In this document: piece by piece, positions 25,001 to 51,206 of the stretch
How positions within the stretch are numbered: the first letter of the stretch is position 1
Layout: the number at the start of each line of letters is the position of its first letter
From: Antedon mediterranea
Taxonomy: Eukaryota; Echinodermata; Crinoidea; Comatulida; Antedonidae
Direction of reading: 5' to 3'
Assembly (NCBI RefSeq): GCF_964355755.1
Contig: NC_092677.1
Coordinates: 11,368,601-11,432,600, forward strand
DNA length: 64,000 bases
Made by a program: the position numbers and the translations under genes
The notes under the pieces: generated by a model
What the model saw: the letters and a program-made list of their open reading frames with translations, nothing else
Databases searched by the model: none
Told to the model about the DNA's origin: nothing

Positions 25001-25459
25001 ACACATACAGGAGAAAAACCATTCAAATGTCACATATGTGGCCGTGCATTCACAACTAAAGGCAATCTTAAGGTACACATGGGGACGCATATGTGGAATG
25101 GTAGCACGTCGCGTAGAGGTAGACGTCTTTCTCTCGACCATCCTATGATCATGAGCCCAAAAGAAGGAGAAGTTTTTCGTAGTGATCTAATGAGCTTCCA
25201 ACCCGCTTATGATGGTGCCTTCTTCCAGTACCCGCCCTTCATGAATGGAGTTAGTGGTCCTAAACCCAACGAAATATCAGTCATTCAAAACAGCAGCACT
25301 CAGGCCTATATACCTCCTACACATTCAGGAGTGGTGAAATCGGAAGCCGACATCCAACGTCTCCAAAACCAGGCCTACATTCCACCTCTTCACACTGCAG
25401 TCATCAGAAAACCAGACACAAAATTACAACCACCAATGTTATCAACCAATGCTTCTTAA
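22005..25459 (+). CDS. SALL: Spalt-like zinc-finger transcription factor, main exon
   Basis: The exon supplies residues 25-1175 and the stop of a 1175-residue protein. In order: a C2HC finger (41-61), a glutamine-rich segment (about 143-177, the position of the SALL oligomerisation region), a C2H2 pair (308-355), a pair plus a third finger (548-628), a pair (818-865) and a C-terminal pair (1005-1053) ending MGTHMWN and followed by RRGRRLS. This pair/pair+1/pair/pair layout with TGERP linkers is the SALL signature, and the total of nine C2H2 plus one C2HC finger equals vertebrate SALL1. SALL proteins are nuclear repressors that bind AT-rich DNA through the last cluster. A PQDLS motif at 635-639 fits the CtBP-binding consensus. 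The gene appears to be single here, so which vertebrate paralogue it matches is not a meaningful question. Confidence 0.96.
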
Positions 25460-25805
25460 TATCATAAAAAGAGTTTATATATGTATTGACAAATAGTGTT
25501 GTTATTCTTTGAGGTTGAATTTATCCATGTTGCTGTTGGTGCTCTAAGATTATTATTATTGCTTATTTATTAAGTGCTTCCAAATGAACCTAGGTTTGCT
25601 AATGTGTAAATTTATTTATTAACTAATTTAATACAAGAGAGCTGACCATTAATTTGTAACACCTTGTTGTTTTTCGATATTTGTTTGTAAGGAGTTTTAA
25701 TGGGGATCATTTATGATGGAAAACATGATTTAAATGAAACTTCCGTGTTATAAATGTACCATTATATAACTTCCTATTCTCCAATTAATATAGTTTATAC
25801 CAAAA

Positions 25806-25811
25806 AATAAA
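25806..25811 (+). terminator. Candidate poly(A) signal of the SALL gene
   Basis: AATAAA lies about 350 bases after the stop codon. It is one of several A-rich sites in the 3' region and is the first canonical hexamer I noted. It has no independent support. Confidence 0.35.
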
Positions 25812-28087: not shown

Positions 28088-28220
28088 GCTTGGTTCCTAC
28101 TAGGAGGCAACGTAAGTTGTTGACCAATCACAAGCGAAGGTTCGGATGGTCCATGGCTTGTGATTGGTCAAATCACTTGCGTAGCGCTTATACGTTGCGT
28201 CGTAGTGGAAACAAATCTTA
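28088..28220. mobile_element. Short inverted-repeat element (MITE), copy 2
   Basis: It shares the core TTGACCAATCACAAGCG and the mirrored TGTGATTGGTCAA with the copy at 12745-12895. Both copies end in imperfect inverted repeats resembling GGTTTCCACTTGGATGCAACG. No coding capacity. Type unknown; the length and ends suggest a non-autonomous DNA transposon. Confidence 0.65.
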
Positions 28221-29245
28221 ATATTAATTATACTTAAACAAAATGTTTAATTTCCATATTAATTTAAACGATTGTCTTTCAGTCGACATATTTTTATATT
28301 CATCTTGAATTTTCATCAAACCGTCTTTCTTGGTGACGTTTACAGAGAATTCTACCTATTTAATTTCCCAGAGCTTTCATATTCGTTGTTAATCTTTATT
28401 TCGATATTTATTTTTGTGGTGCTCCTAATTTTATTATTTCCACCTTGAGTTAAAATGGATGCAACCAGTTGAACCAAAGTGTAATATAACCAGAGGGTGC
28501 TTGTAAGATGGTTCCATTTATTTCGTGGGGTGGTTGTCTGAAAAAAAAATCAGAAAACCAGAAATATATTGTCAGTATTATCACATAAATGTATGTTCGT
28601 TGAAAGATGTATTATTATGTAAAAGAGAAAGATGTTGGTCAATGGAGAAATATTTTTGTATGTAAACATTTTTGCCGCTCTGGCAGCACCCGGATGTCAA
28701 TGTATCATCTTGTTGACCTTAGTTGTTGCAAATACCAGACAATTTCTAGATAAATGCGTGTTTATGTAGTTGTGTATTTAAATTCCTTAGTTGATTAATT
28801 GTTGTTGGAAAACTGATTTTGTTTAAAGACTATTCCATTAATACAACTTAAATACACGTTGTATGGTAGAGTGGTCGTTTTCTTTTTGTTTCAACAAAAT
28901 CTCTGTTTCATTAATAAAAGATATGGTAACAACAGATAATTGACCTTTGTTTACTCATTATACTGCTTTGCCCATTGTGTAGTTTTGGAGTGTTACAGTT
29001 GTGATCTCGCTCTATAATGATACATGAGTATTGGTTTTTTTTGGGGGATAGTGATATTTTTATTTTTTCCGTTAGACAAGTTTTCTAGAGTCCTATCATT
29101 TCTTTATCATCCCATTATATCAGTAATTGATAACCTGTGTCGCGCACGGTATACTGTCTTTCTTTCTACTTCTCCATATTATATCGAGAAGTCGACCAAG
29201 TAAATTCCATGTATTAAACTTGATGTGCCGTATACTACGTCACAT

Positions 29246-29430
29246 ATATATAAATCCAAAAGGCAAATTACTGAAAAAATGACAATGCTGTGGGTATCAG
29301 TGGCTGGATCTCAATGGAGATACAAAATAAAAGCGAAAAGCTCAATCAAAACGAGAAGTAAAACAGCCAGAAAAGTTAGCAGAGCTTTCGGGCAACACTA
29401 GAGCCCTTCATCATCACACGTCACATATAT
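29246..29430 (-). mobile_element. Penelope-like retroelement end fragment with a hammerhead-like core
   Basis: On the minus strand this contains TGATGA, a GGGC/GCCC stem around a 9-base loop and GAAA, in the order of a hammerhead ribozyme core. Hammerhead motifs are known from the terminal repeats of Penelope-like elements. The sequence CAGTGGCTGGATCTCAATGG is shared with the tandem block at 57620-57870, and ACTGAAAAAATGACAAT also occurs near 4050. The core departs from consensus (A where the conserved C precedes TGATGA, and one extra A before the stem), so it is probably inactive. Assignment to Penelope is inference. Confidence 0.5.
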
Positions 29431-30618
29431 AATTTTGACAAGCAAAATGAGGACATGAGCATAGATCTTCATAGGTGGTATAAGGGTGCATTCACACGGC
29501 GCCGTCTTCTTCCGTTCTGTTGAACGAAACAAGTGTGAATGAGCATTAGTTTAAGAAGTTTAAGTATGATGATCATGCTCCTGGTGTCCGAACAGCTCGT
29601 CGTAGCGCTATTGTATTGCTTTTCGGAATATTGGAGGACCTGTGCGCAGTATCACTTATTGCTCTGGTCTCAATGAGCTCCCGTGGGCGATTTAAACCCG
29701 TTAAATACAGTAATGGTTCCCCTAAAACGGAAATAATATAGCATGTATAAAGGTAACGATAGGCCTTTGTTTTTTGTTTGCAAAATAATCTTCTCTTGTA
29801 GAGATTTTAACAATTTCTTTACAACCGGTAACACAATGTACCCATAGCTTATAAAGATTTTAAAATTGCCGGCATACGTTAAGTGCTGAATTATAATTTT
29901 TTCCCCCAAATTTTTGGTTGCTGTTATTAAACATACTAAATCAATTACAACATTAAAACGCAGTAATTGTATTACTAATCGCTAATGCTTAAAGTATGTC
30001 ATGTTAATTAAGACCTACTCACCCGTAACATTCACTTGTTGAAAAAGACAAATGTTCTTTTTATCGAAATGAAATAAATAGGTATTTATGAAATTGCCCT
30101 TGAGACAGCAGGCGTCTCATTCATATCCTTACCTAAAACAGGCCTATGCCCTCGAATAACCATGCAAATCATTCGTGGATGATATTTATTACATATGTAA
30201 TTCTTATTTCATTTAACATACTAATTATGAAACTCTACCACACCGTCGGCTCCCCATAGACTGACAAGTGATATCGGACAAGGCTATCATCACTCGTTAC
30301 CCCAGCCTAGCCGAATTAAAATCTCGAAAAATTATATTCCTCTCATTTCCCCGCCCAGGTTATTACCCTGTAGTAGAATTTGTTGGTTGATGACCTAACC
30401 TTTGATTGATCAGAAAAAAGACCTAATTTTATTCAGGATAAAGAAGCGTCCAACAAAAAAAAAATTAAAACAGTCAACGAATTCAGCAAACAAAACTCAG
30501 TCAAGCGAATAATCCACCTATTAATAGAACCGCTTAATTTTCCGCTTTTTATTTACAAAAAAAAGTACACATTAAAATAATATTGTAAGAGTTCAACAAT
30601 TTCTTTCAAACCTGCATA

Positions 30619-30840
30619 TTTTTTTTTTTTTTTTTTTTAATTACAGTATACAACAACATTTATTCAATATTCAATATTTTACAAAGTTTATGGGTTAAGA
30701 TACACAGAAGCCAAAGTGGCTTGTCTTTGTAGTCCTAAGCATAAACATAAAACATATTATACGGACGCATTACATTAACAAAAAATGACATTTTGAGACA
30801 GAAAAAGAAAAAAAAAACACAAACACAACAAAGTGATATT
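30619..30840 (-). mobile_element. Retrotransposon or processed transcript 3' end, reversed
   Basis: A run of 18 T is followed within about 30 bases by TTTATT. Read on the minus strand this is an AATAAA signal shortly before a poly(A) tail, the mark of a reverse-transcribed 3' end. No coding sequence is identifiable upstream of it, so the source (LINE or cellular mRNA) is unknown. Confidence 0.5.
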
Positions 30841-31502
30841 AAGCTAAATGTTTACAACCCCAATTTTGCAGTAGCAATAGTAGCTAGCAATATGTTTCAA
30901 ATATCATCTTTTTAATATTGTACTTCAGCATAGGGAGTGAGGTCATGTGATTTTGTTCTATATATCAAGGTTGCACTTATTATCTGTACAGTACTAGGCC
31001 TACACTTTTTTTGGCAAATTACATAGGTCCTTACATGGCTCCTGGTTGGTTACCAACCCACAAAAGTTCCAGGAAGCCAGCTTAGCGGGTACCGTACGTT
31101 AACTTGTAGTCTGAACGGGCCCTATAAAGCTAGAAATATATGATACATACAATTATTTCGTTTAACATCATAAAGAACAATTATTCTTTGATTTTATTAA
31201 CGGTTATTTGTTACAATTAGTAATTCTATGTAAATTTAGTTAAATTTCTATTGTTAGGCCTATCTATCTGTAATGAATTTGTGTGAACGGCTACTTAAAC
31301 AATATTATTGTTTTCGGCCACCGGGCAAGAATCCGGGCTCAGTTGACGTAGAATCATTTGAGTCAGTTTTGCTACAAAAAAATAGACCTAAACATAATAA
31401 TAACTTCCAAATATTATTATTACTGTATTATCTATCATCGGATTTTTTTTATTAATTAATATTATTGTGTTTTGATTGTTATTGATTCGCTCAACTGTAA
31501 CC

Positions 31503-31531
31503 ATGGAGGTAACATTTGTTTACCTCCATGC
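31503..31531. repeat. Looped palindrome related to the one at 678-707
   Basis: CATGGAGGTAA, a short spacer, then TTTACCTCCATG. It shares the CATGGAG terminus with the 30-bp palindrome 31 kb upstream, which argues for a repeat family. Confidence 0.6.
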
Positions 31532-32151
31532 TGTAACCAAATTGTCACTGTAGCCTACCAACTGTATCGCGAAAAGTTGGGGAACGTTCACGTCCAACGA
31601 CGCGCCAAAATTCAAAATTCATACTTCGAAATATAGATTCAAGATTCAAGACATAGGCCTACATTTCGAGAATTATCAAATAAAATGTGTATAATATATC
31701 GATGCAGTTTATGATTGTTCCAGAAGAGTGTGTGATTTCACTCTTACCTGGATTGTACACCATGTTTGTATACTATTATTTTGTTCGAATATATTCACAT
31801 ATTACGACTTATGATGGCGACATACGTGAAACACCGAATGACCGTCGATCAACTACTACGAAAGTATAATACAAACTGGAATGATGTTAGAGATTTGACA
31901 TTATTTACCACAGTACAGTACGGTAATTGTTTATATTGTCCGTCATATCGATTCTATAAGTGATTTTATTGGATAGACCATGGCGCGTCCAAAATGCTTT
32001 AATGTAATGACAATTTTTTGTGTCACCAGTATCTACCCGTTGCATTTAATGACAAAAATAAATCGCAATTGTGGACATGGGGGTGTGTGCAGGTATTATA
32101 CGCCCATGGGTGTATGGGTGTAACTTAAGCCCGCCACTAATAAGAATCGTT

Positions 32152-32168
32152 GGGGGGGGGGGGGGGGG
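32152..32168. repeat. Homopolymer run of 17 G
   Basis: An uninterrupted G run, followed by TGG. It could form a G-quadruplex, and it is also a place where assembly length is unreliable. Confidence 0.9.
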
Positions 32169-33869
32169 TGGTAATTTAAATCCGCCCGTCACGCCGTCTT
32201 TGACCACAGGTGGTGAAATGCGCTTCCTCAAAATAAGATATCATAATCGTTTATTTCTGTTACTCATACGGCCTTCAAGTAAGAATAAGATACATTCCAC
32301 GTGTAAGTTACATAACAATTAATTAAACCATATTTGTGAAATACTAAATGCATATCGAAGTTTAGGCCTTGAGAGATTAATAATGCTCCGTGCATTACAT
32401 TTGAATAATGCGTTTAATTGAATTATAGAATACACTTGTAGCCTAATTTGCAATGGCTTAAATATGCAAATCAGGAAAGACTAAACTAGTAATTTTAGAA
32501 CTAAGTAAGCTGCCTACTTAATAATTGTTTTAAAAGCCCTTTAGCTAACGCATCCACCAACATAGGGCCTATGTATGTCCTATGTGGATTGCCAATTGCC
32601 CTAATTGACTTTTTACTCGGCGGTTAAAACATAAATAAAAAATACATGAAAAATGTTATATCATAATTTAAATTATTCACGAGGCAGATATTAAAAGATG
32701 CTTAATTGGTCAGTTTGACTTGATCATAGCATGGTGTAAGGATCGTGTCGATATTGCGTGATATAAAATTTTAATATTTTAAATATTTAGTGCAGTAAAA
32801 TGTATTTTGTTTCAGTTTAAAATTAATGTAATGCTTTAAAAAATACTTATAAAATGATTATTATCAAAGCAAGAGCTTAATGTTATATTTTAGGCCCGAG
32901 ATATTTTTTGCAGAAAAAGATTAATGGACGAGGACGGCATATAACTGATAGATCATACTCATCAGAAACGACTGCAAAATATAGCTCGTCCTATGTGATA
33001 TTTTAGAGGGCAGCAAACACAATACCGTATACGTCATAACATTAAAGTTGATAGGAAAATGATGGTTCAGCAGTAATTCCTCCATAATAGGAACCGATTT
33101 TAGTGTATGTTTTTATAATATTATTTAGTTATTTAAATGTTTACCGTGTGCTTGGCGTTATTTGGGCGAAGATAGGCGAAGCACTTGAAATAGTAGACCC
33201 TTAATTAATAAGATTAAGAACAATTTAAAAAATAAATAAATAAAATTATGTAGCAAAAATGAATATACATATGCCATATGTACAAAAACATGAAAAGTGT
33301 ATTATGATAGGATAATACAATAACCGACAAATTATTACAGAAAGAAAAAAAAAGACACAAAATAACATATAGCTTGAACCTATCCGTAATCGTTGACAAC
33401 TAAAAAATACATACTTTAATTTATTTTCGATGAAACATACAGTTAATTTATTAAAAACAAAATTAACTGTAAGACTCAAAAGGATACTTGAATACTGTAT
33501 TATTATTATTGGTAAAGTCGCTAATTTAGATTAGACTAAAAATGTACAATATAATGATTATCTTCTTTGAGTTTGATATTGCAGTATAATCACTTTTAAA
33601 AAGAAGGGTCGCATACTATGCAATAAAATACAATTAATACACATTCATTTTAGACTAAAAATTAAATTCTCAAGATGTGTTCTGTCAATTTGGAATTACA
33701 ATTGTATTTTATTCATCTGAAATTATTCAGTCAGTGGATATTAATTTTTAAGAAGTACTTAGGAAAATTATCCAGACTTGGGCGTCATCCGATATATGCA
33801 GAACAATGTTAAATAAAGAAAAAATGCCTTTAACGCGACAGGACAAAAGACCACCTATTTAGCATAAGA

Positions 33870-34039
33870 ATTGACGCATGCGTAATAGGGTACGCCATAT
33901 TGTAGGCGCTAAAAAGCTATTTCCAGGGCGTGTAAACTATACATTTTACACCGGATTGTATCCATATATAGTCCAGATATTGATTCAATCCACCGTGTTT
34001 TAAAACAAATAGCTTCTATTCTCCATCATAGCTGAGCTA
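33870..34039 (+). promoter_or_regulatory. Probable CTCF promoter and non-coding first exon
   Basis: The stretch contains an NRF1-like GACGCATGCGTA (about 33873) and a YY1-like GCCATATTG (about 33894), both common in TATA-less housekeeping promoters. A strong donor GTAAGT follows at 34040 after GCTGAGCTA. The next exon carries the start codon nine bases in, so a separate 5' UTR exon is required, and this is the best candidate. Its 5' boundary is unknown. Confidence 0.4.
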
Positions 34040-35167
34040 GTAAGTATTTTTTATTTGTTCTTTATAGAAAAACAAGGGAATTTTACATAGCCCGCCCCCT
34101 ACATGGACGGGAAAATTGTTCGGAGGCATAATTAGATATACAGGTAAAAAGTAGAGTATGCTAAACGTTTTGGTAATTTTCTATTAATGTATGCATTAAC
34201 TTGGCTCAAATAGTACCCATATTTGCTCACAAGACACCACTTAAAGGTTCTATGTAAGTTTTAAATGTGTATTTTTATAATTTAGGACTTGGTGGCGGTG
34301 TTTTATTTCGCGCCCCCAATAAAATTTTGGTGTGATGATAGCGTAGGGTAGGTAAATTGGAGGCGTGCTTCCCGCCTGTTCTTTGTTTGCCTCCCTCTCC
34401 TGGTTTACACTGGGCTTAGGTTTTGAAGCTCAAAATAATAAAAATGCACACTTCGAATTAACGAGGGAATCTCGCTATATTGTGTAGGAAACCTGTTGGA
34501 TCTGCCAGTGATTATAACTTTTAAAAAGTACCATGAATTGAAATTATGTTAATGCATTCAATATCCCTCCCTTTTTTTATAATAATGCAGTCATTTTACA
34601 TCATAAAAATAGACCCAAACAATTGTGATTAAAGAGGCTAGACTTTTTAAGAAATTGATCCTACTGTACTACTATTGTCATATTGGATATCCCTTACTAC
34701 TACTAATACTATCCTAGGCTATCCTTCCACTTGTATTCGAATACCATGACCTATTTTAGTGATAATTAATGGGTCAACATTTTTTATAATTGTATTTTCA
34801 ACAATAAAAAAAACCAAAATTTTAGTGCTATATAGACGTCAAAAACATTTAGTAATGTGAAATAAACAGCACAGAATGAAATATTAAATTGGCATTAAAA
34901 AAAAATTCCAATCTGTATTAATTTAAACAACGTGTACTTTTTTTTATACAGGGCCGATTTTACATGCAGGTGGTTGACAAAAACCATATATATTGGTCTC
35001 CGCCCTAAAATATATAGTATGATATCCAATCCAATGCCTAATTAAAAATGAGTGACTAAAATCTTTTGTACAGTAGTTTCAGTTTGACTCCACCCATACC
35101 AGTCTCTCTCTGAAATTCAGAAATTCTGATATGAAGTTTATATGTATATCTTTTGTATCCTCTGTAG

Positions 35168-38100
35168 CTTCTATCATGGAAGGCGGTGGAGACGCAACAG
35201 CTGTAACAGCCGAGAGTTCAACTACTGTTGACCCGGCTTCAATGAACGTCTTAGAGACATACTTGCAAAACTTCAATCAGGAGCTTTCATCAACAACACA
35301 GGTAGCAGAACAGGTAATCATTAGTTAAACCTACTGAAACTCCATGGTGCGAGAAAAAAAAATTTCTATTGATCATACATTCCAATAATTATCAATCTAT
35401 AGTTTCCCCAATGTTTCATAATTTTTGGGATTTTATTTGTGTTGAACACAAGCTTGTTGAAAATAAGCACTTTCATATCAGTTCATTTGATAGTTCAAAT
35501 TTCACAGTAAAATATCTATTCTTTTGTACACAAATTTTGTAAATAGAGAGGCATTTTAAAAAGCTATGAAAAATAAACAGTGTGGTAAAAAATGTTATCA
35601 GATGACTAAATATAGATAATATAAATTGAATTTTACATTTCTGGTATTTTTATTCAACTTCAGATAGCCCCTAAAATTTAACAACCATAAGAATATTTTT
35701 ATGTTTCTGCAACCCAACAGATAGTTTTTATCATTTATGAAATAAATCTAATCTATAATGCTGGATCTGTATATGTTACATATTTCATTTATTTTTATTT
35801 ATGCATTTACTGAGTTATTAATCTTAATTCTTTGTGTTTAACCGCTCGGCCACGCGCTCGTACTGTAGTATGTATCGCTTATTATAGAAAAAGTAATGAC
35901 CAATAGTTTTAATAACGAAATGTGTAATTCTTCAAAACTTCAATTTGCTTCCATTTTTAAGGTAAAAAAACCTGTAGAAACCCAAGTAGCTGTTGCCAGT
36001 GATATTGTACCCTCTGTGCAACAGGAGGTTGACACAGCTGAAGAGGTAACCACAGAACAGGTGACTACAGAACAAATACAGAATCAAGAGATCACAGAGG
36101 TTGTTGAGCAGAGCGATGTGCAAGTTGCAGTACAGGTGGCAGAGCAGGTGACAGAAGCAGATGTACCTGAACAGATAGAAACTGTTGCTATACCTGTGCA
36201 AGAGATTGAGCCAGCACAAGCTATAGCATCTGTTAATGGTAAGATTTGGAAGTCTTATTTCTACTGCTAGAGTAATAGAAAGCTTACAATTTGCTCCCTA
36301 TTCTACAATGACATACAGACCTTTGTACAATATTTATTATCGGTTGCGTTCTGGATTGGATACCGTCTGGGAACATTGCGTTGGATGCTGTATACAGTAT
36401 ACTGAAGAGTGATGGTGTAATGATAATATCGAACTCTAGCATGTCATACCTATCTGTATCATACTGATTGTATCCTTAGGCGAGATGCTTTACTTCATTG
36501 CCTCGTCCTTTGGAGGTGATGTAAAGCTGTTGGTCTTGTGTACATATAGTGCATGTTGAAATTGGTACACTATTTGAAAAGAATAGGGGATGCTGATTTT
36601 GTAGGCGCTGCAGTGCTGGCTGCTGTGGAGGGCTTAATCCGAATTTCCTCAGTTTCCAGTTAAGCTTGAGGAGCACAATAAATACACCTTTACTATCATT
36701 ATGTTTCAGTTGTACAAGGTAACACCCATACAGTTACCCATGATCATGTTGATATGGACATAACTCAGACATTGCAGCTGCTAGCCAACGCATCAGCGAA
36801 CCTCTCAGCTCCAATCACTACAACTATTGATGGTCACACCACCACTGAAACCGTTGCTAATGTACAGACTATGGCAGAGAGTATGGGTCAGGCATTTATA
36901 CAAGGGATTGAGGAGGCTGGGCAGAGTGTGTCACTTAGTACTGCAGGTGAGTTTAACTAGATTAGTTTAGGTGGTAGGTGTCAGTTACAGCTGTGTGAGG
37001 GAAAATGAAACGGTACTGTTCATCTATCGAGAGGGGATTCTCTTTCGGGTTGAAATTAGGCTTAGTGGAAGGCTTTATAATGAGCTGCAGGCTGGTTATG
37101 GACTTTAAGGTGGGTGGCATAACAGGTTAGTTAAAACTTCAGAAATACAACTTGAATTTGCCTTCCTCCCTTTTTTAAATTAGGCCTACTGGACAAATAA
37201 ATATGGTTTATACAAAAAGTAGAAGTTAATATTTGATTACCATATTTAATGTTATAATGATATAGTTGATGCAGTACATTACGTATGTAGTTCTGAAAAT
37301 TAATGTATGCTTACTTGACGATTCAATCAATATGCTTCAATCGTCGTTAAGACTGACACTGCAGGTAGTCCAGAATAAATGCTATTTATTATTTTTAATG
37401 ATATCAAACTTATATTGTTACAGAGGCCCTACAGAGCCTGCAGAGTGGGCAAGGACAACAGGTGGTTATGGTAACTCAAGAAGGTGACCAGGAGTCGACA
37501 CAGCAACAGGTTTTAATGGTTGCCATGCAAAATGATGGTAATGTTAGTGGTGCTCAAGGAGTAGGCCCTCTAGCGTTCTCAGATCCAGTGAACGTGGTTG
37601 GGGGTAATGTTGTCTACCAAACAACCAACCTACCACACCTTGTACCCGTCTCCCAATCTACACAGGTATGTCGCCTTAATACAATATATGTCTGGTCCTA
37701 CTGTGATTGGATATTGCCCAGCTACCAATAAAAATTCCCACCAACAATATGTTTAATACCGTATTATAAAACATACAATCCTTCTTGGTTACCTGATACC
37801 CTATTTCGTATTTAAAAAAATTGTACATACTATTTTCCTTGATTTATGATGAATGAATTTTGTCATATAAAAGCCAAAGAGATATCAGGATATGAAGAAA
37901 TTAGCAAATGGCACCTCAAGGATAAGGCATGGAACCTATATACATTTAGATATGAATTTTCTCACTACCAGTCTGTTACTACTAGTTTGACAACAAAAGT
38001 GTGATGTAATCAAATATGGTAGTGATATGCTCAAATATGGTAGTGATATGCTCAAATATGGTAGTGATATGCTCAAATATGGTAGTGATATGCTCAAATA

Positions 38101-40719
38101 TGGTAGTGATATGCTCAAATATGGTAGTGGTATGACATCATATATGGGCACATCACATTTGTCACATAAAGTTTGATAGTGTCTGTGGCATATGCCTTAT
38201 TGTCAACTACACGTTATTTGAAACAAAATCTACTTTGCTTCAATCTAGGACCAAACGACCACCATCCAGGCTACCGACCAATCTGGCCAGGTTTATACCA
38301 TCATTCAGACCCTAGACGGAGAAACACCAGTAGCAGTGACTGAAGGCCAAGCTCAGTCTACTTACACTGAGCTAGAAGTGTCACAGGCAACTGAAGTTGC
38401 CGGCAAGTCTGGAGAGGTTGTCCATGTGGTTGATGCTCCATCTGCTGATGGAACAGAGGAAGTGCAGACACAGGTAGGATATCGCACACTTAGTCTATTT
38501 CATTTGAATTGGCATATTTGATTGAGTAACCACTGTGCTCAACAGACATATCTGTTTAAGTAATTTTTTATTTAAATGGTTAACATAGATTAGCGCAAAA
38601 CTTTTCCTTGATACAGGGTAGCATTTAGCTCTGTCTACACTACCAAACTAGTTTTACAAAAAAGGTGTGATATGCATAAATATGGTAGTGATATGACATG
38701 GGCACATCACATGTTTTTGTCACATAAGGTTTGATAGTGTAGACAGAGCTTTAGAGGCACCCCCTTTTGACAACTATTTTCGGCTATTTTATTATAGGTT
38801 AACACTCCCCCATTAAAAAATCCTTGATCTGTTTCTGCAAAACACCTACTAATAATTGATTGAAATTGGAAATGTAGTTGTGTCACGATTTTTTTAAGCA
38901 GATTGTTATTGTGCGTGAGGTAGACACCGAAGAGGGCAAAGGTCAAGATCACTCCGTTTATGACTTCTACGCTGGTGAAGATGATGACGCGCCGGTCACT
39001 ACCGCAAGCAAGTCAGACAAGGGTGACACACCGAAGAAAGGCAAAAAGTTTGTTGTTCCGAAATTTGATGACGGCCGTCTTATTGATCAGGTTTTTAATC
39101 GTGTGAAGAAGTCGCCTACCAGCCCACGTCAACCAAAGGTTCACGAGTGCAACATGTGTGGCCGTATCTTCAGAACCTCAACACTTCTGAGAAACCACAT
39201 CAACACTCACACCGGAACCAAGCCGTACAAATGTCAGATGTGTGATAAGGCTTTCGGAACATCTGGCGAATTAGGCCGCCATATGAAGTACATACACACT
39301 CACGAAAAACCCCACAAGTGTCCACTATGCGATTATATCAGCGTGGAAGCGAGTAAGATCAAGAGACACATGCGTTCCCATACCGGTGAGAAGCCGTACA
39401 AATGTACTTTGTGCGACTATGCAAGTACCGATAACTACAAGTTGAAACGTCACATGCGTATTCATACTGGAGAGAAGCCATTCCGATGTGGTGAGTGTGA
39501 CCAGTCCTTTTCACAAAAGAGCAGCTTGAAAGAGCACATGTGGAAGCATACTGGAAACCGGCCGCAGCACAAGTGCGAATTCTGTGAAACCAGTTTTGGA
39601 CGTGTTGCCGACATGAAGACCCACATCAAGAAGATGCACACCCAAGGAGAGGCATTGATTTGCAAATTCTGTGAGAATGGATTTACCGATAGATACAGCT
39701 ATACTCAACACATTAAGATGCATCGTGGTGAGAAAATATTTAAGTGTGGCGAGTGCGGTTATATGGCTCCCCAGAAACGCCATCTGATGATACACATGAG
39801 GGTTCACACAGGAGAAAAGCCATACCAATGTACCGATTGCGACGAGACCTTCAAACACCGTCAGACCTGTATCAATCATGCTAGGATTAAGCATGGTCAC
39901 ATTTTGGAGTTCCCCGACTTGAAGCGTAAGAGATCCGAGTCGGAAGACGATTCTCCATCAAAGCGGGTCTCGCGAAGACAGAAGATGATAATAATGGGAG
40001 CTGTTGGCGCTGAAGAGGGAGGGGATGGACAGAGTATTCCTTCAGAAGTTGTCGAGAATGCTATTGGCAGAGTTCTTCAAGAGACTGAAGGAATGAACGT
40101 GGAAGGTGGTGTCCCAGTGACAATTCTGACTGTGACTCAAGGTCCTGATGGTTCAATGCAACAGGTTGAGCAGACGCTGCATGTAGTTGATGGGCAGTTG
40201 ACATCGATCGAAGGCGAAACATCTACTGTTGTTGAAGGGGAAGCTGAAACTACACAAATTACGAACGAACAATTGCAACAGATCCAACAACAGATTCAAC
40301 AGGGTGAAAGCAGTTCCATTGCTACACCAGAACAGTCTCAAGTAGCTGAACAAGCACAAGGCACTGAACAGGCTCAAAGCACTGACCAGGCTCAAGTAGA
40401 CGCACAAGAACAAGGTGCTATGCAAATTGTGATGGAAATAGATGAAAGTGCTCAGAAACAAGAAGTCGAAGAAAACTTGCCACAGACGAGCTCTGAGCAG
40501 ACAGTGGTACAAGAGGTAGAAGAAGTTGAAGCTGCTCCTCCTGCTGAGACAAGCACACTACAGGAACAGGAGCAACCACCACAACAACTCACAGACGAAC
40601 AACAGGCAGCAGCTAATGTTGACATGCAAGAGGTCACTGAAGTTATTGAACAACCAATAGAAGAAGAGATTGAAGAAGATGGGGATAACACCATTTATCT
40701 TTTTGTTGAAGAGCAGTAA
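35168..40719 (+). CDS. CTCF: CTCF, chromatin insulator protein (six coding exons)
   Basis: Coding exons: 35168-35313 (ATG at 35176), 35962-36238, 36710-36946, 37424-37665, 38249-38473 and 38902-40719, all with GT/AG borders and matching phases; 978 residues. CTCF binds DNA through its zinc fingers and blocks cohesin to set loop anchors. The N-terminal 373 residues are a Glu/Gln/Val/Thr-rich low-complexity region. The last exon carries EEGK then SVYDF (YDF 393-395), matching the cohesin-binding YDF of vertebrate CTCF, followed by nine C2H2 fingers (454-704) equivalent to ZF2-ZF10. A KRKR-containing basic stretch follows, then an acidic, Gln-rich tail. No canonical ZF1 or ZF11 is present. Orthology rests on finger order, helix residues and the YDF context. 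A divergent CTCF paralogue is the alternative, but no second copy is visible here. Confidence 0.9.
36335..36690 (+). mobile_element. Possible SINE remnant in a CTCF intron
   Basis: The piece GGATTGGATACCGTCTGGGA followed by ACATTGCGTTGGATGCTGTA resembles the 3' half of 5S rRNA (GGATGGGAGACCGCCTGGGA then GGGTGCTGTA). It is followed by a CTTTGGAGGTGATGTAAAGC block of the kind seen in deuterostome SINE bodies. The remnant stops just before exon 36710-36946. Weaker than the two 5S-type copies at 44.3 and 59.3 kb. Confidence 0.4.
37979..38184. mobile_element. MITE family A, copy 2, with internal 21-bp tandem array
   Basis: The ends are degraded (ACTAGTTTGACAACAAAAG on the left, AAAGTTTGATAGTGTCTG on the right). 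The middle is about six copies of a 21-bp unit ATATGGTAGTGATATGCTCAA. It lies in the CTCF intron before exon 38249-38473. Confidence 0.85.
38627..38753. mobile_element. MITE family A, copy 3
   Basis: Short copy with both terminal inverted repeats present, AGCTCTGTCTACACTACC on the left and TAGTGTAGACAGAGCT on the right. It lies in the CTCF intron about 150 bp before the zinc-finger exon. Confidence 0.88.
38902..40719 (+). CDS. CTCF: CTCF last exon: YDF motif, nine zinc fingers, C-terminal tail
   Basis: All fingers sit in this one exon. Finger 1 here (39142 on) reads GRIFRTSTLLRNH, the ZF2 pattern of vertebrate CTCF, and the next three match ZF3-ZF5 at helix positions -1, 2, 3 and 6. The ZF7 equivalent keeps the H-x4-H spacing and a long linker. 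The stretch before the first finger (39046-39141) has about the length of a finger but no Cys or His at the metal positions. After the ZF10 equivalent the protein passes directly to KRKRSES. The stop is TAA at 40717-40719. Confidence 0.93.
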   Translation: MVIVREVDTEEGKGQDHSVYDFYAGEDDDAPVTTASKSDKGDTPKKGKKFVVPKFDDGRLIDQVFNRVKKSPTSPRQPKVHECNMCGRIFRTSTLLRNHINTHTGTKPYKCQMCDKAFGTSGELGRHMKYIHTHEKPHKCPLCDYISVEASKIKRHMRSHTGEKPYKCTLCDYASTDNYKLKRHMRIHTGEKPFRCGECDQSFSQKSSLKEHMWKHTGNRPQHKCEFCETSFGRVADMKTHIKKMHTQGEALICKFCENGFTDRYSYTQHIKMHRGEKIFKCGECGYMAPQKRHLMIHMRVHTGEKPYQCTDCDETFKHRQTCINHARIKHGHILEFPDLKRKRSESEDDSPSKRVSRRQKMIIMGAVGAEEGGDGQSIPSEVVENAIGRVLQETEGMNVEGGVPVTILTVTQGPDGSMQQVEQTLHVVDGQLTSIEGETSTVVEGEAETTQITNEQLQQIQQQIQQGESSSIATPEQSQVAEQAQGTEQAQSTDQAQVDAQEQGAMQIVMEIDESAQKQEVEENLPQTSSEQTVVQEVEEVEAAPPAETSTLQEQEQPPQQLTDEQQAAANVDMQEVTEVIEQPIEEEIEEDGDNTIYLFVEEQ

Positions 40720-42675: not shown

Positions 42676-45600
42676 GTATGTATAGATATTGCTAAATCTG
42701 TATAACATGTCAAATTTCTTCTTCGGTTCTAGCTAGGCCTAGGCCCTACCTACTTACCTACCTACTACCCTACTATTCTACTAGGCCTACCTAGTTACTA
42801 GTAGTAGTAGTTAGTGTAGTGCTCGTAGGCCTCACTAGATACTAGAGTAGGGCCGGCCGGCCTACTACTGTACTAGCATAGCATATATAGCTGGAGTAAA
42901 AGGCCTAGCCTGGATTGCATTAAACCTTGGATTTGATTTATTTCCAAATAATTATACAATACAGACATCGAAGTAAATTACGGCTACAATGGACAAGCTT
43001 GTTTCGTTGCCTGTGTTTGTACATGTGGTAGGACTATATCAGAGGCTGATAATATAAATGCCAGTTGGACATGGGTCAGCAACAATCACGAATGGAACAG
43101 TCTTTTAGCATGCAATCCGACAAGTTCTGAACGGTCAGTAAATTTAGCTGTGTGCGACATGAACATGTGAATAAGTATTATTAATAAGTATTTAACTCAA
43201 ATTGCAATAATACTGGAATTTAGCAATGTCTTGTGTCTGAATTCAGCACAAGTTAGAGAGTATTAGTAGAGGGCCCCAATGAAAGCATTGCTGTCAGTGA
43301 TCTGGGCTACTTTTGTAAAAGAAGATTAAATTTATATATACTATATTTTTTTTCCCTTTTTTGTACAGGTCATGTGATGATTCTCTTGTAGCTGACCATT
43401 TACACAACTTGGCAAATAAACTACCTCACGCTGGTAAATATTTGTCATCATTATCTGGTCCTAAAGCATTGCAGACTAAATGGTCAATAGTATTACATTA
43501 TTAATACCACAAAACTATGCCCTTATAAAACCCAGTGACCTGAGTAAATAACTGAACAGAATACATACAATTTACAAGCCTGTAATAAAGAAAAGTAAGT
43601 GAAATAAATATTTAATTGTGGATTACATTACTGAGAATAAATAGTTTTCATATTATTTATTTACTATAATTATTAAGGTTATCAGGTTCAAGTTATCTGG
43701 AAATTGCATAAGGATCGTAAGTTAACACTTTGTTCAAACCTACTCATGTTCGGTGCTCTTAAACGGCTACAATGCTGGCATAATGCGCAGATTGTTTGCA
43801 TTTTACCAAAGGATGACGATATGTCTTTAGTACAGTCTTGGATAGACTATCTAGACATTGAGGTATCTAACAATGTTGAGGACATCTTACAGAGAAGATC
43901 AGTATGGCATGGACAGATGTCTTTAACTGATAGAAAGGTATGCCTCACTGTTTTGTGTTAATCTCTTGGTGTCTACACTATCAAACTAGTTTGACAATGT
44001 GATGTGCCCAAATATGGTAGTAATATGACATCGTGTCCATATATGGGCACATCATATTTTGTTTGTCACAAAGTTATATAGTGTAGACAGCTTAACAATT
44101 GAATATCGATCATATTCAATAATTATTCAATTATCTGTTGTATAATGAAATTTTGATTATTATTATGGCCGACATCTGTCGCAAACGACAATGTGGTTGC
44201 CAATTAGTTTTACATTCATCTGAATGATGGATGAAACTAAGCCAGGACTGTTTAAAGCACATTTGGCTGGTCCTAACATTGACCAAGGGTTTCTCTTGCC
44301 CATTACCCACCTTAACCAGAGGAGAGGCCTAATACGTCTGAGGCAGATACCAGATGCAGGAGTTGCCATAAGAGTCAGCACTACTGATTTCAAATGCCTA
44401 ATGGGACCCCAGCACCTGATATTCCCAGATGGTCTTCCATCCAGGATTTTACAGAGTAAAACATTGCTTAACTTCAGTGATCTGACGAGAACTGGTGTTT
44501 CAACGTGGTTAAAAGTATTTAGTACTATTATTAGTGTGAAAAGATCTGGAAGACCAACGCAGTACACCATGGTGTACCGCAAACCTTACTTAAATTGTTG
44601 TATCTTAACCACGAAGCCAAGACTTTGTTGTTGTCAGGTATATACATTTATTTTCAGAATCTAATCAACTGTGTACTACCTGGTTTCTCATTGGTTGATC
44701 TTGGAACGACAACTGAAGATTACGATAATGATGACAATTTGTTGATACATAAGCGTCAGTACATGTCAGTTGTACAAGTTATAAATAAGGATGATGTTCC
44801 TCTAGCTTATATCACACCTCAACATTACAAGCTGTATCCTTCTATGTGTTTAAAAATTATATTTGTATTACAGTAGAACCTCTATTAAGGGGACACTTTC
44901 AGGACCCAACAATGTGTCTCCCTAAAGCTCTGTCTACACTATCAAAAAAAGTACCTAAATTTGGTAGTGATATAACGTCATCATGTCCATGGGCACATCA
45001 CATTTTTTTGTCACATAGTTTGATAGTGTAGACAGAGCTTTAGTAGGGTTGTCTCCGAATAGGCAGTAGGGTTGTCTCCGAATAGGCAGTTGGGGTAGTG
45101 TTAAAAACATATACAGTTTTTCCCCTCGTTGCTTTGCCCCTCCTTAATAGGGTTGTCCCAAAGTAGGAGTGCTATTGTATCATTGTATTGTCTTGGCCCT
45201 CGGTGGATTGACATAGCACCATTGATTATATAAAGTTAATCAAGAAATAAACTTAAAATTTGTTCTTAACTGACACACCTTCAGATCAGTTATGGCAAAT
45301 AGCTGTTGGGTTGATGTGTCTCGCTGTTTCCTTGAGTCCATAACTGAGGATGAAAATATAGCAATGATAGTAACATTAGAATGCCAAAAATTATCAAAGG
45401 CAATGTTGTCGCCACCAGAATGTAGGTCTACCATCAAATGGAAACGTCAGATTTCAGCTAACCCTATGGATTTTAAAGGTAGATACACATTATTTCTAAA
45501 GGTTTTTTGTCAAACTAGTTTGATAGTGTAGACAGAGCTTAAAAGAATTTAATTTACTTTAAATTTTCAGTTCCCGAAGTTGACTTAAGAGGTTCATGGT

Positions 45601-48600
45601 TTAGTATCAATGTGTTACTGTGTAATGATGGCGACGATGGATGTAATGCGTTTGTGTTGTTATCTCCTTCTGACTTCAATGGACATGTTATGGTTGATCT
45701 AGCCAATTTGGCTAACAAATATCAATCAGGTATGTGTGAACAAGGTTTTAATTATGTACAGAATTATATTTATTCAAACTTTTTAACAATTTAAAAAAAA
45801 GAATATTTACATACAGATTTCTTATATTATTATTGGTATTGGAAAAAACAAAATTTATTCAGCACTAATAATAATAATGATAATATCCTGGATTTATAAA
45901 GTGCCTAATGTTGTGAAACCTCTAAGCGCTGTACATATTATTACCCTCGTTATTTTTTTATCTAACACTAATGGAAACATACTCCCATAATGCAGCTAGT
46001 AATCAGTGCATTTATGCACCTGGGTGGAAAGAGGCAAGCGTGAGTAAAGTGTCTTGGCTAAAGATACATGCATATTGAGCGTTAGATTCATACCTACGAT
46101 CTCAAGATAATTAATCCAACACACTGCGTCACACACCCTTGCATACAATACTATATTGCCTCTATATTAACCATAAATCTATTAGGCACTATTTACACAT
46201 CAAACTCATTTGACTCATGTGCCCAAATATGGTATTGATATTCCCAAATATGTTAGTGATATCATCATGTCCATATATGGAAACATCACATTTTCTTGTC
46301 GCATAAAGTTTGATAGCGTAGAGCTTTATACGAATATATAGACTTCTCTTCCCTGACCATCTTCCACATTTTGTTTTGAAAATGTGTACTTTTATGTTTA
46401 ACTTTAGAAGTGAATGAAGATGAACAGGCAATAGAGAAAATTGCGGAGTTGGATGCTGAGAAAGTTGTCAACAGTCAGGATAACATTCCCAAAATACAGA
46501 TAGACATTCTACAGAGATGGTCAGGTAATTTATTTATAGGATTACGATGCAAAAAAAAAAGCATGATTATAAAAACCAAATAAGATATCAACCTGACCCC
46601 TAGATATCAACCTGACCCCTAGATATCAATCTGACACCTAGATATCAACCTGATCCTTAGATATCAACCTGACACCTAGATATCAACCTGAACCCTAGAT
46701 ATCAACCTAATCCCTAGATATCAACCTGACACCTAGATGTCAACCTGAACCCTAGATATCAACCGGACACCTAGATATCAACCTGACACTTAAATATTAA
46801 CCTGACCCCTAGATATCAATCAGGCCCCTAGATATCAACCTGACCCCTAGATATCAACCTGACCCCTAGATATCAACCTGACCCCTAGATATCAACCTAA
46901 TCCCTAGATATCAACCTAATCCCTAGATATCAACCCTAACCCCTAGATATCAACCCTAACCCCTAGATATCAACCTAATTCCTAGATATCAACCCAACCC
47001 CTAGATATCAACCTAATTCCTAGATATCAACCCCAACCCCTAGATATCAACCTAATTCCTAGATATCGACCCCAACCCCTAGATATCAACCTAATTCCTA
47101 GATATCGACCCCAACCCCTAGATATCAACCTAATTCCTAGATATCGACCCCAACCCCTAGATATCAACCTAATTCCTAGATATCGACCCCAACCCCTAGA
47201 TATCAACCTAATCCCTAGATATCGACCCCAACCCCTAGATATCAACCTAATCCCTAGATATCGACCCTAACCCCTAGATATCAACCTAATCCCTAGATAT
47301 CGACCCCAACCCCTAGATATCAACCTAATCCCTAGATATCGACCCTAACCCCTAGATATCAACCTAATCCCTAGATATCGACCCCAACCCCTAGATATCA
47401 ACCTAATCCCTAGATATCAACCCCAACCCCTAGATATCAACCTAATCCCTAGATATCGACCCCAACCCCTAGATATCAACCTAATCCCTAGATATCGACC
47501 CCAACCCCTAGATATCAACCTAATCCCTAGATATCGACCCCAACCCCTAGATATCAACCTAATCCCTAAATAAACTAAGCCTAAACGTAATGATGCTGTT
47601 ATGAATACAGTTTTGAGTAAATTTCTGTCTTTGCACATGTTTATATTTCAGAAGACCAGAAGAATCAGAATCAACAACCTACAATTACGGATGAAGATAT
47701 GAAATGGTTTTTGAATTCTGTGAGAACACAATATTTTAATCGTGCAATAGTTCAAGAGATTCAGTCAACAAGTAACACTGTAAACCAAGATGAAGAGGTT
47801 ACTACAGGTCAGTTGGTTTTTAAATTGTAGTATTACTATATATACACTAAAGCACTGTACATAATGCAACTATGAACCCTCAAATCTTGTGTTTTTGCAT
47901 AATGAGTAAACAAACTGTGTACATTTCATAGGAAATGCTGGAGCACAAGAAAGCTATTTATTACTATGATGTGGTTTAAGTATTACTGAATGTATTGAAT
48001 CGGTGTCATACTGGCTTAATGAATATTATTGAGTACAGTATTGTCTATACTTGGAAATACAAACAATGAATTTATATTTTATTATATTGTCTGATTATTT
48101 TTTCATATTGACTCACTGTGTACCCTTTTGTTTGTTTTTCATTCTAAACCTTGAATAATTTGCCGTCATCATAATCACCACCTTTCCCACCATTTTGTTT
48201 CAGAATTAGATTTGAGTCCGTCATGCTGGGTGGAGCGACAAGCCCTGCAGAGCAAGGAATCTTACATTCGTAAAATGAAGCGGTTCAAATCCTCTGACAG
48301 GTCGCTGGCTGGTATTTCTGCACCACCAGTTGATAGCAGTAAGTACAGAATTTTCCAGCACGCTAACGGCGCACATTGTGGGGAGGTGGGTGAAGGACCT
48401 CAATACATTTTTAGCACCCGCTCCCCACCTCTCTTTCTAATAATTTATAAGCAGCAAATTTTGTAGGACTCCCGCCATACTGTCAAAAACCCTGTTTTAC
48501 TTACTACAGAATTGTATGTCGTTTTGTCTTTACTGTATTATCCTTGTCTTATAGTCTTTATATATATTATTTTTCTTTCTCATTCTTTCATTCAAATTAA

Positions 48601-51206
48601 GGTCTTATCTTTTTGTTTTCTAGAAATCACACTAGATGCAAAAGAGTTTATAAAACATTTTGGTAGAGATGGTACGGCATTAGCAGAGGAGCTTTCCCCA
48701 ATTGCAGTCGTTAACGGTTCTGGCAGATGCACGTCCATTTCTATGTCTGGAACACAGGGACTTGAAGATGTTAGCAATGCACCGTTTAATGAGGCTCTCA
48801 AGTACAACTACTATGGAATTAAGTACGAAATCTACGTTCCTCTAAATAATAATTTAGCCTTCATCTTTTTTAAACTGAAAAAACTACATTTACAAAATCA
48901 GTGTAGAACAAAAATATGCTTCACAGTCAACTTTCTTAGGAAATTCTCTCAAAAACAGAATTTGGTTCGTCCCTACTTCATTTTTAATTTTCAAAGTGCA
49001 TTTTGAAAACCAATGACTATATTTGGCCAATCATATTTGAACTTAAATTTTAAAAATTCTCCTAAGTGTAAGTAATTTAAAGTGTCATTGATGAATATGG
49101 ACATTCAGGTCCAGCCTATATAATAGGGTGTATGGTTTTGATACAGTTCAGTGAACAACACTGCAATGCAATTTTGAAACATTATTATTGTTATTAATGA
49201 TTTAGCTACTGCTTGGATTCAAGAAATGCAGTATATTATGATGAAAAATATCAGAAACTTGAGTGTAGAATAATTTGCAACGAGACCGCATCAACTTGTA
49301 CAATTGAGCAGGTAGATTCACCAGCCACAATGGCTATAAACCCTGTAAGACGGTCGCCTAGAAAACGCCTTGCAAGAACACCGGTGTCAAAAAGTAAAAG
49401 TCACAGAAAATACCAGTCGCCAAGGAGTGCAAAGAGAAGGGCAAACATGAAACTGGAGACAAGTTGCAAAAGGTGTGGTATTTTTATGAATTTACAATGA
49501 ATATTAAATCATTTACACCCACCAAAATTACACGGATTTATCTATCTGTATCGTAACCCTAGATAATAGTCAAAGTAAACGAATACTTTACACATTTATA
49601 GGCCTTCAAGAAGTCCAAGAGTCTCCAAAGCATGCAAAGGGCCATCTTTAGCAGGGAACACAAGTGTTACGAAATCAGAGGAAGTGATTGCACCTTCACA
49701 AGCGGTGGCTACAGTACCAAAGAAAAGTCAACAATCTGAGAAGACTGCTCAAGTTAAAAAAGGCCAGTCACGATCAGAAAGACATAAAAGAGTAAATTGT
49801 TTTAATTTTCAAATATTTTGCTTGTTAATGCCAAGTATTATAGAAAGAAAAAAATTTTCATAAAATACCGTCACAGTTTGTATAACAGTTTCATCACATG
49901 ACTGTGCAAACACAAGTTCATTTTCATATAGGTCCGGTTCCCAATGCCTACTTGTGGTTCCAAGGACATCTACCTACGGTCAGAGAGCCTTTGCAGTGGC
50001 AGCGCCAACTTTGTGGAACACCCTACCTATCACAATCAGACAGTGCACTTCCCTTAACTCATTTAAGACTCAACTCAAGACTTTCCTTTTCCAACAAGCT
50101 TTTCATTAATTTAACCTTTCCTGTTTTTATTTTTGATGTTCAGCGCATTGAGAGCCTGCTTATATGCGCTATATAAGAACTGACTATTATTATTATTATT
50201 ATTATTTATACAGGGTCAATTTTTTATTCTGTTTATAGAAGCTGAAATATATTGTTGACAATACATTAAAGTCTAAAGGAATTGCAAAGAATGATGTGTG
50301 CTATCCAGGATGTGCACAACGGCTGTTTTCATTGACCAAAAGCTTTGTACAGGTAAATCTGTTTAGATCATAGAGATAATATTTACCTACTAGAGGGTTA
50401 ACTAGGCTAGTGATGCCAACATTTTAAGCATGGATCGAAAATAATTTTCCCAAAGACTTTCTCTGAAAACCCGAAAGAGGGCGTCCCATTTTAGGGAGCA
50501 TTATTATGAATATGCATTATGTTTTATCTGCTCTGCGCTTGCCCTCTGAATGAACTTTTTAATACGCTTTCTGTAAAGCCATCTGTGTAGTTGAATGTAT
50601 TAGACTATGGGCTTTGCATGTCGAAGTATGGGGTTCAAATCACATGACCCAACTTCTTTTTACTTTATAGTGAGAGAGATTATTTAGAGGGTTAGGTTTA
50701 GTTATATTTAGGAAGTAGTTCAGCTATCTTTGACATACAGTATTTTTCAGAGAAAAGAAAAAATGTACGCATTCAGGGACTTCTTAAAATGGCGGCTGTG
50801 TGTCTGTTGAAATAAAGCACATATTTTTTAGAAATCAACTCATTGTTAATGGCAATGAAATTATTTAAGTATAAATATATGTTTTTGTGTTGATATGCTG
50901 AACACACAGTGTAGTGGTGTGTGACTGTGTACGTGACATGACCTTTAACTGGTGTATGTGATTGGCCCATTGCAGCAGCCATTTTGTTGAGTCCTTGCAT
51001 CCACAGTGAATCACTTTTGAACTGTGATTTTATTTTGCCACACACACAAAGTACAGTACCAAAATGATTGCAATGGGTTGTTTAATTTAATATTAATATT
51101 TCTTTAGGATTTAAAGTCTTCAAAAGGACTAGACCAACAGATGCGAAACATAGCAGAAAGCAATGTTGACCAGGTTATCAGTTTTGAAAAAATGAAGAAA
51201 ACATGA
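42624..51206 (+). CDS. MTBP: MTBP, replication-origin firing factor (15 coding exons)
   Basis: Exons: 42624-42675, 42965-43133, 43369-43433, 43678-43937, 44658-44833, 45285-45478, 45571-45729, 46408-46524, 47652-47807, 48204-48338, 48624-48822, 49206-49472, 49602-49791, 50239-50352 and 51108-51206; 783 residues (human 904). All phases agree. MTBP partners Treslin/TICRR in loading CDC45 at origins and was first found as an MDM2-binding protein. The translation follows the family from KYILFVDL (human RYLLLVIW) through VPEVDLRGSW, ITLDAKEFIKHFGRDG and YYGINYCLDSRNA to the C-terminal CAQRLF...DLKSSKGL block (human CSQRLF...DLKTSRGL). A basic Ser/Arg-rich stretch (RRSPRKRLARTP) precedes the C-terminal domain. 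The first exon rests on start context, donor GTATGT and phase and is the least certain part. Confidence 0.9.
43970..44093. mobile_element. MITE family A, copy 4
   Basis: Left end TGTCTACACTATCAAACTAG, right end ATATAGTGTAGACAGCTTA. It lies in an MTBP intron about 30 bp after exon 43678-43937. Confidence 0.85.
44166..44512 (-). mobile_element. 5S-rRNA-derived SINE, reversed, in an MTBP intron
   Basis: The reverse complement opens with AACCACGTTGAAACACC, then CTCGTCAGATCACTGAAGTT and GGATGGAAGACCATCTGGGA, following the 3' two thirds of 5S rRNA (CTCGTCTGATCTCGGAAGCT, GGATGGGAGACCGCCTGGGA). A body shared with 59181-59523 follows and ends near GTTTCATCCATCATTCAGAT. Two copies with the same head-body join in opposite orientations establish a SINE family. 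The long open frames across it are incidental. Confidence 0.75.
44875..45180. repeat. GGGGACAC repeat element interrupted by a MITE
   Basis: TAGAACCTCTATTAAGGGG then ACACTTTCAGGACCCAAC at the left and repeated TAGGGTTGTCTCCGAATAG at the right, split by MITE copy 5 (44924-45041). Confidence 0.65.
44924..45041. mobile_element. MITE family A, copy 5, nested in another repeat
   Basis: Both inverted ends are intact (AGCTCTGTCTACACTATCAA and its complement). TA flanks both ends, compatible with a TA-type target duplication. It is inserted inside the GGGGACAC element. Confidence 0.88.
45503..45540. mobile_element. MITE family A, solo right end (copy 6)
   Basis: Only the right terminus remains: TTTTTTGTCAAACTAGTTTG followed by ATAGTGTAGACAGAGCTT. 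It sits between exons 45285-45478 and 45571-45729, so this 92-bp intron is almost half transposon. Confidence 0.8.
45890..46140 (+). mobile_element. Degraded LINE/SINE 3' tail
   Basis: It contains the ordered words TATAAAGTGCCTAATG, CTAAGCGCTGTAC, GCAGCTAGTAATCAG, ACCTGGGTGGAAAGAGGCAA, AAAGTGTCTTGGCTAAAG, ACGATCTCAAGAT and ACTGCGTCACAC. I know these as a conserved tail common to many L2/CR1-related repeats in marine animals. Family assignment is from memory of the pattern. Confidence 0.55.
46184..46328. mobile_element. MITE family A, copy 7
   Basis: Degraded ends (CACTATTTACACATCAAAC and AAAGTTTGATAGCGTAGAG) with the family body words ATGTGCCCAAATATGG and TGTCCATATATGG. Confidence 0.75.
46582..47570. 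repeat. 1-kb satellite array in an MTBP intron (19/20-bp units, 39-bp dimers)
   Basis: Head-to-tail units of the type TAGATATCAACCTGACCCC (19 bp). From about 46920 onward they alternate with TAGATATCGACCCCAACCCC (20 bp), giving a regular 39-bp dimer to the end. The left third is irregular and mostly monomeric. Because 39 is divisible by three, repeated-peptide frames appear on the minus strand; these are not genes. Confidence 0.95.
49930..50210 (+). mobile_element. 5'-truncated LINE, last 45 codons and tail
   Basis: The frame at 49975-50109 reads YGQRAFAVAAPTLWNTLP, then IRQCTSLNSFKTQLKTFLF and a stop, the C-terminus typical of the reverse-transcriptase polyprotein of CR1/L2/RTE-type LINEs (AAPTLWNSLP ... 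F+ +LKTFLF). It is followed by AGCGCATTGAGAGCCTGCTT, GCGCTATATAAGAAC and an (ATT)n tail at about 50189-50208. It is an inactive fragment in the MTBP intron between exons 49602-49791 and 50239-50352. Confidence 0.85.
50590..50665 (+). repeat. Possible tRNA-like SINE head
   Basis: TATTAGACTATGGGCTTTGC, then TGGGGTTCAAATCACATGAC, resembles the second half of a decayed tRNA-derived promoter with a B-box-like GGTTCAAATC. The A-box is not convincing. Confidence 0.3.

Follow-up and report, generated by a model that had tools for sequence, protein, structure and literature searches.

The 64,000-nucleotide stretch of Antedon mediterranea DNA that we have analysed (the window) contains what is very probably the CTCF orthologue of this genome, apparently the sole one and of the nine-finger echinoderm kind, in which the zinc fingers ZF2 to ZF10 stay, ZF1 and ZF11 are gone, and a YDF motif would dock cohesin. 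The lack of two fingers is not a new trait in the echinoderm lineage, as echinoderm CTCFs have already been described as having lost two of the eleven fingers and hemichordate CTCFs one (PMC13317027), and the locus is a well-supported example of it. The architecture proposed in the initial annotation (ZF2 to ZF10 only, with the YDF motif kept) holds.

Nine fingers in a single exon

Nine C2H2 motifs lie between positions 39148 and 39894 of the plus strand (Table 1), within an open frame of 613 codons (38878-40719, plus strand). The top PDB match of the protein encoded by this exon was human CTCF (chain 7w1m_H, 305.7 bits), and the alignment places the fingers, one after another, on its residues 294-546, which correspond to ZF2-ZF10 (297.0 bits for that stretch). 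In a register test, where each finger was compared with the human ones leaving the zinc ligands out, the ordered ZF2-ZF10 register scored 317, three shifted registers scored 75, 107 and 99, and 317 was reached by one of 200,000 random finger assignments. Both the alignment and this test bear out the ordered correspondence that had been claimed from the sequence; the span then given to it (38902-39905) was correct for the end of the finger array but not for the end of the exon, which is at 40719.

The human counterpart was the best match in seven of the nine fingers, the exceptions being those at the ZF6 and ZF7 positions. In the case of the last finger, which scored 24 against ZF10 and 23 against ZF11, the name ZF10 was given because it is placed after ZF9 and not by its own letters. 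The helix positions -1, 2, 3 and 6 are the same as in human in four of the nine fingers (ZF2, ZF3, ZF4 and ZF5). Each of ZF6-ZF10 departs from human at these positions, although for ZF9 the difference is limited to a single one. It has been described that the core site is read by ZF3-ZF7 (PMC7021899), and the contact residues of these fingers are identical to the human ones in ZF3-ZF5, while ZF6 carries QSSE (QGTM in human) and ZF7 carries RADT (RSDV in human). Furthermore, the linkers that follow ZF3, ZF6, ZF7 and ZF8 are not of the TGEKP type. A generic tandem C2H2 array (ZNF) was ruled out by the finger-specific, ordered match together with these linkers, and the array found on contig C9 (see below) shows the contrast. 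Human CTCF (7w1m_H) and the protein described here thus share the order of ZF2-ZF10, the helix contacts of ZF2-ZF5 and the TEEGK-SVYDF context, and differ in the absence of ZF1 and ZF11 from this locus and in the altered contacts of ZF6-ZF10; beyond the motif and the fingers, there was no alignment within the stretch searched. The Pfam analysis of the CTCF exon returned generic C2H2 models only, plus weak sub-threshold matches, and nothing for the open frames 44224-44661 and 48467-49003.

The exon encodes, in this order, TEEGKGQDHSVYDF, a 60-residue spacer, the nine fingers, a basic stretch, a Q/E-rich tail and the stop. A splice acceptor is located before 38902, and the open frame that precedes it has a donor at 38474, the two being compatible in phase 0 (phases were assigned by hand). 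Four upstream open frames, between 35.9 and 38.5 kb, can be joined in phase (also by hand) and are likely to code for the N-terminus, with no first coding exon recognised. The single exon 38902-40719 codes for the complete finger array and for the entire C-terminus. In vertebrates, the CTCF fingers are distributed across several exons. A PDS5-binding KTYQR-like motif had a single match in 25500-39200, placed amid many stop codons, and was discarded as due to chance; since the first coding exon was not located, the lack of a genuine match carries no weight. In the intron located 5' of the last N-terminal exon there is a short tandem repeat with a unit of about 21 bases (ATGGTAGTGATATGCTCAAAT, window positions 38010-38130). 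The window also contains an open frame of 1159 codons (21980-25456, plus strand), whose nine C2H2 motifs come in small clusters and which we take to resemble a spalt/SALL gene. Human chromosome 16q carries SALL1 and CTCF, and 20q carries SALL4 and CTCFL. A SALL-like gene near CTCF may perhaps reflect an old linkage, which would support orthology.

Table 1. Features of the CTCF locus (window coordinates) and genomic positions of an inverted repeat with a CTCF-like core
Feature	Position	Strand	Evidence
Upstream CTCF exon, probably coding (Q/E/V-rich part of the N-terminus); 5' end uncertain	35962..36238	+	Open frame 35869-36270; donor 36239; phase fits next exon (by hand)
Probable N-terminal coding exon	36719..36946	+	Open frame 36682-36960; splice sites listed; phases by hand
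Probable N-terminal coding exon	37424..37665	+	Open frame 37402-37731; donor 37666 and acceptor
Probable N-terminal coding exon directly 5' of the finger exon	38249..38473	+	Open frame 38249-38521; donor 38474, phase 0
Large CTCF exon: YDF motif, nine fingers, basic stretch, Q/E-rich tail, stop	38902..40719	+	Open frame 38878-40719
SVYDF, cohesin-docking motif (human Y226/F228)	38953..38967	+	Alignment, translation
60-residue spacer at the expected place of ZF1, no Cys, no finger	38968..39147	+	Motif scan, composition
Finger 1 = ZF2	39148..39210	+	Alignment, motif scan, register test
Finger 2 = ZF3	39232..39297	+	Alignment, motif scan, register test
Finger 3 = ZF4	39319..39381	+	Alignment, motif scan, register test
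Finger 4 = ZF5	39403..39465	+	Alignment, motif scan, register test
Finger 5 = ZF6 by position; diverged, closest human finger ZF10	39487..39549	+	Alignment, motif scan, register test
Finger 6 = ZF7 by position; diverged, closest human finger ZF2	39574..39639	+	Alignment, motif scan, register test
Finger 7 = ZF8	39661..39723	+	Alignment, motif scan, register test
Finger 8 = ZF9	39745..39807	+	Alignment, motif scan, register test
Finger 9 = ZF10 by position	39829..39894	+	Alignment, motif scan, register test
Basic stretch LKRKRSESEDDSPSKRVSRRQKM, C-terminal to the fingers	39919..39987	+	Translation
Inverted pairs of the 76-base stretch (G000)	C10:19513476-19518728, C8:1327185-1332432, C4:6316968-6322197, C3:25023314-25028549, C1:34793734-34799728		

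The terminal fingers and the search for a second CTCF

The 60 residues that separate the YDF motif from the first finger contain zero Cys and one His, and because of this composition there is no ZF1 between them. The spacer aligned to human ZF1 with a score of 14.0, shuffled sequences giving 13.0 +/- 7.9 and scoring as high in 877 of 2000 cases. In a predicted structure of 39028-39906, no finger fold was present in the 40 C-terminal spacer residues that it covered, 35 of which had a pLDDT under 50; this prediction, made from a single sequence with no alignment, was weak (mean pLDDT 62.3, pTM 0.21) and was used only for the spacer. ZF1 could have decayed in place, losing its zinc ligands while the length of the spacer was nearly retained, and we hold this as a tentative reading, suggested by the distance from YDF to ZF2, which is 60 residues here and 67 in human when about 39 would be expected after a clean deletion of one finger. 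Linker lengths are free to vary, though, and both the shuffles, which make the spacer unlike human ZF1, and the lack of a finger fold in the modelled part of it (40 of the 60 residues) speak against such a decay.

At the other end, the 274 residues from the last finger to the stop, which begin GHILEFPDLKRKR, contain no C2H2 motif, and the basic stretch starts 8 residues after the last finger. In agreement with the initial annotation, the protein therefore lacks ZF1 and runs into a basic tail with no ZF11. An additional 3' exon coding for fingers, whose search had been advised, was not present either, as the motif scan of the plus strand gave no C2H2 motif in positions 39895-64000 of the window, nor in 25091-39147. 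It is hardly credible, given these scans, that an exon or splice form still to be recognised adds further fingers to the nine: one open exon carries YDF, the whole array and the stop, and a separate exon could insert a ZF1 between YDF and ZF2 only if this frame hides an intron.

When human ZF1-10 was compared with the genome, the top match was exon 38902-40719 (306.8 bits, 54% identity), and this match begins at query residue 27, where ZF2 begins. The next one reached 169.8 bits (137 bits lower) and corresponds to an ordinary array on C9. In the search with the window protein, the match to itself gave 850.4 bits and the next best listed 190.9 bits (41%). The locus thus has what is expected from a CTCF orthologue, an ordered finger match and the best match in both directions. 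The C9 array was rejected as a CTCF paralogue, as six of its helices (QGNR, RSSV, QSSV, EGTS, RSSV and QNAV) differ from the CTCF ones; for the remaining runner-ups, among them the 190.9-bit match, the judgement was made on score, in a genome rich in C2H2 arrays whose best candidates were scored. Among the genome matches listed for both queries there was no second CTCF-like array, so that the separate, full eleven-finger CTCF whose existence had been contemplated was not encountered, and, on the strength of the matches listed, it is likely that the genome has no CTCF paralogue, though one could sit beyond these matches.

The divergence of ZF6, ZF7 and ZF10 could be explained if the locus were a CTCFL-like duplicate, a diverged paralogue, with the complete eleven-finger CTCF located elsewhere. 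We consider this very improbable, since among the matches listed for the window protein and for human ZF1-10 there is no second one close in score, the runner-up of the human query has generic helices, the YDF motif is retained, and published echinoderm CTCFs are also devoid of two fingers (PMC13317027). The count of nine instead of eleven does not oppose an assignment to CTCF, because eleven fingers are typical but not defining, ambulacrarian CTCFs having lost one or two (PMC13317027). As in the CTCFs described in that report for S. purpuratus, P. miniata and H. pulcherrimus, two fingers are missing here, and there is a cohesin SA orthologue in the genome; compared by description and not by sequence, the missing pair here is ZF1 and ZF11, and YDF is intact, while the text passages of PMC13317027 leave the lost fingers unnamed and its main text does not contain the term 'YDF'. 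This term was not found either among the literature matches listed for CTCF in sea urchin and echinoderm evolution.

The docking motif and the cohesin pocket

A cohesin-docking Y-x-F precedes the fingers, in the form SVYDF and in the context TEEGK-x4-SVYDF, where 11 of the 14 positions are identical between TEEGKGQDHSVYDF and human TEEGKDVDVSVYDF; the initial annotation had described a vertebrate-like EEGK context. In human CTCF, residues 226-230 bind RAD21-SA2, and the Hi-C defects of the Y226A/F228A mutant resemble those of the deletion of the whole N-terminus (PMC7645679). The interface pocket is formed by Y297, W334, L366, F367 and F371 of SA2 and I337 and L341 of SCC1, residues that PMC11182772 names in relation to CENP-U, a motif of which binds in the manner of CTCF. 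The better of the STAG loci of this genome (L011, on C5) keeps W334, L366, F367 and F371 (according to the alignment, with the numbering of 7zjs_A), and the RAD21 locus (L016) keeps I337 and L341, with a change of S334 to G. The open frame preceding the STAG locus ends in HRYR, which presumably fits human Y297. There is also a second, diverged STAG-like locus (L012, G000:C4:1414115-1414240), with N at the L366 position, which is possibly a meiotic or decaying copy, and a second and weaker RAD21/REC8 N-terminal match (L015, G000:C8:13622406-13622525), on the same contig as CTCF, which is possibly REC8. The change at S334 and these two additional loci are points against our preferred reading.

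The 25-residue window around Ser224 (the S of SVYDF) has been reported, from the eLife alignment in PMC6361588, to show conservation within vertebrates that does not extend to echinoderms or arthropods, and the SVYDF stretch kept here (11 of 14 positions) speaks against that statement for echinoderms. One S. purpuratus entry was wrongly annotated as CTCF-related according to PMC3784565, where the loss of CTCF in some echinoderms was left possible, which may perhaps have a bearing on this discrepancy. In the case of Drosophila CTCF, the N-terminus has likewise diverged while keeping the cohesin-binding stretch, and this same stretch binds SA-Vtd cohesin in vitro (PMC7880997), whereas for the protein described here the evidence comes from its sequence.

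These data suggest that this CTCF would bind cohesin through YDF. The initial annotation went further and proposed that the cohesin-blocking part is kept. At the sequence level this agrees with the motif and with the pocket residues of one STAG and one RAD21 locus, but blocking itself finds less support, as published echinoderm boundaries show no motif orientation and loop anchors no motif enrichment (PMC13317027) and the core motif is in no clear excess in this genome (see below); cohesin blocking by this CTCF is a putative function.

Site recognition, boundaries and the separation of the two parts

From the residues that are kept and changed we infer a putative way of working, which concerns the DNA target, cohesin binding and any loop effect of this CTCF. 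ZF3-ZF5, with their contact residues unchanged, would read the central core site as in vertebrates, while ZF6 and ZF7, with altered contacts, may read their part of the core differently. The fingers that flank these have roles at the DNA next to the core, including ZF9-ZF11 upstream of it. With ZF11 absent, ZF9-ZF10 would reach upstream only partly, the contacts on either side of the site would be shortened, and the ZF1-based contact with RNA would be missing, with YDF docking on cohesin in the STAG-RAD21 pocket. Binding of RNA by vertebrate CTCF involves ZF1 and ZF10 (PMC7566886), and the ZF1 mutation H288R leads to insulation defects (PMC7645679).

The exact vertebrate core motif CCASYAGRKGGCRS has 91 matches in the genome and its one-letter controls have 80 and 82, so that there is no clear genome-wide excess over these controls and no sign of a wide use of that exact site. 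One repeat family supplies 17 of the 91 matches (overlap determined by hand), and the controls were counted with repeats included. Controls read backwards gave lower counts (22, 12 and 17) and were not used as evidence because they contain fixed CpG. The repeat family that supplies the 17 matches is a 76-base stretch with the CTCF-like core CCACTAGAGGGCGC, which has at least 41 genome matches, among them several inverted pairs about 5.2 kb apart and one 5.9 kb apart (Table 1), like the terminal inverted repeats of DNA transposons.

In echinoderms, the enrichment of CTCF motifs at boundaries is present but far below that of zebrafish, the motifs show no orientation there, and loop anchors have no CTCF-motif enrichment (PMC13317027). 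It is therefore worth considering, as a possibility to which we give somewhat less than even weight, that this protein is a CTCF by descent that is no longer a cohesin-stopping boundary factor and has mainly another role, for instance in mitosis. The work of Watanabe et al., as cited in PMC11457506, suggests for sea urchin CTCF a role in mitosis rather than in interphase, and the boundaries without orientation, the loop anchors without enrichment and the lack of a clear core-motif excess in this genome point in the same direction; the retention of the docking motif and of the pocket residues, together with the enrichment that echinoderm boundaries do show, argues against it.

Starting instead from our preferred reading, a nine-finger CTCF that would dock cohesin, the loss of the core-flanking fingers, and above all of ZF1, the finger that separates YDF from the DNA-binding fingers, might have uncoupled docking from the direction of the site, so that a cohesin-binding CTCF would halt extrusion without orientation. 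We regard this as an unlikely explanation; if it were true, it would account for the orientation-free boundaries of sea star and sea urchin with YDF and the pocket intact. Drosophila CTCF has eleven fingers, and that they are kept in an orientation-independent protein stands against the uncoupling by ZF1 loss. Fly CTCF binds cohesin in vitro by the same stretch (PMC7880997) and yet it has been described as orientation-independent (PMC13317027), which weighs on the same side.

Orientation-dependent CTCF loops may be an invention of vertebrates or may have been lost elsewhere, and both options are discussed in PMC13317027. A CTCF with YDF, in a genome with the pocket, but devoid of ZF1 and ZF11, offers a natural separation of the two parts: if this CTCF still binds cohesin, the lack of orientation would not be attributable to a lost YDF.
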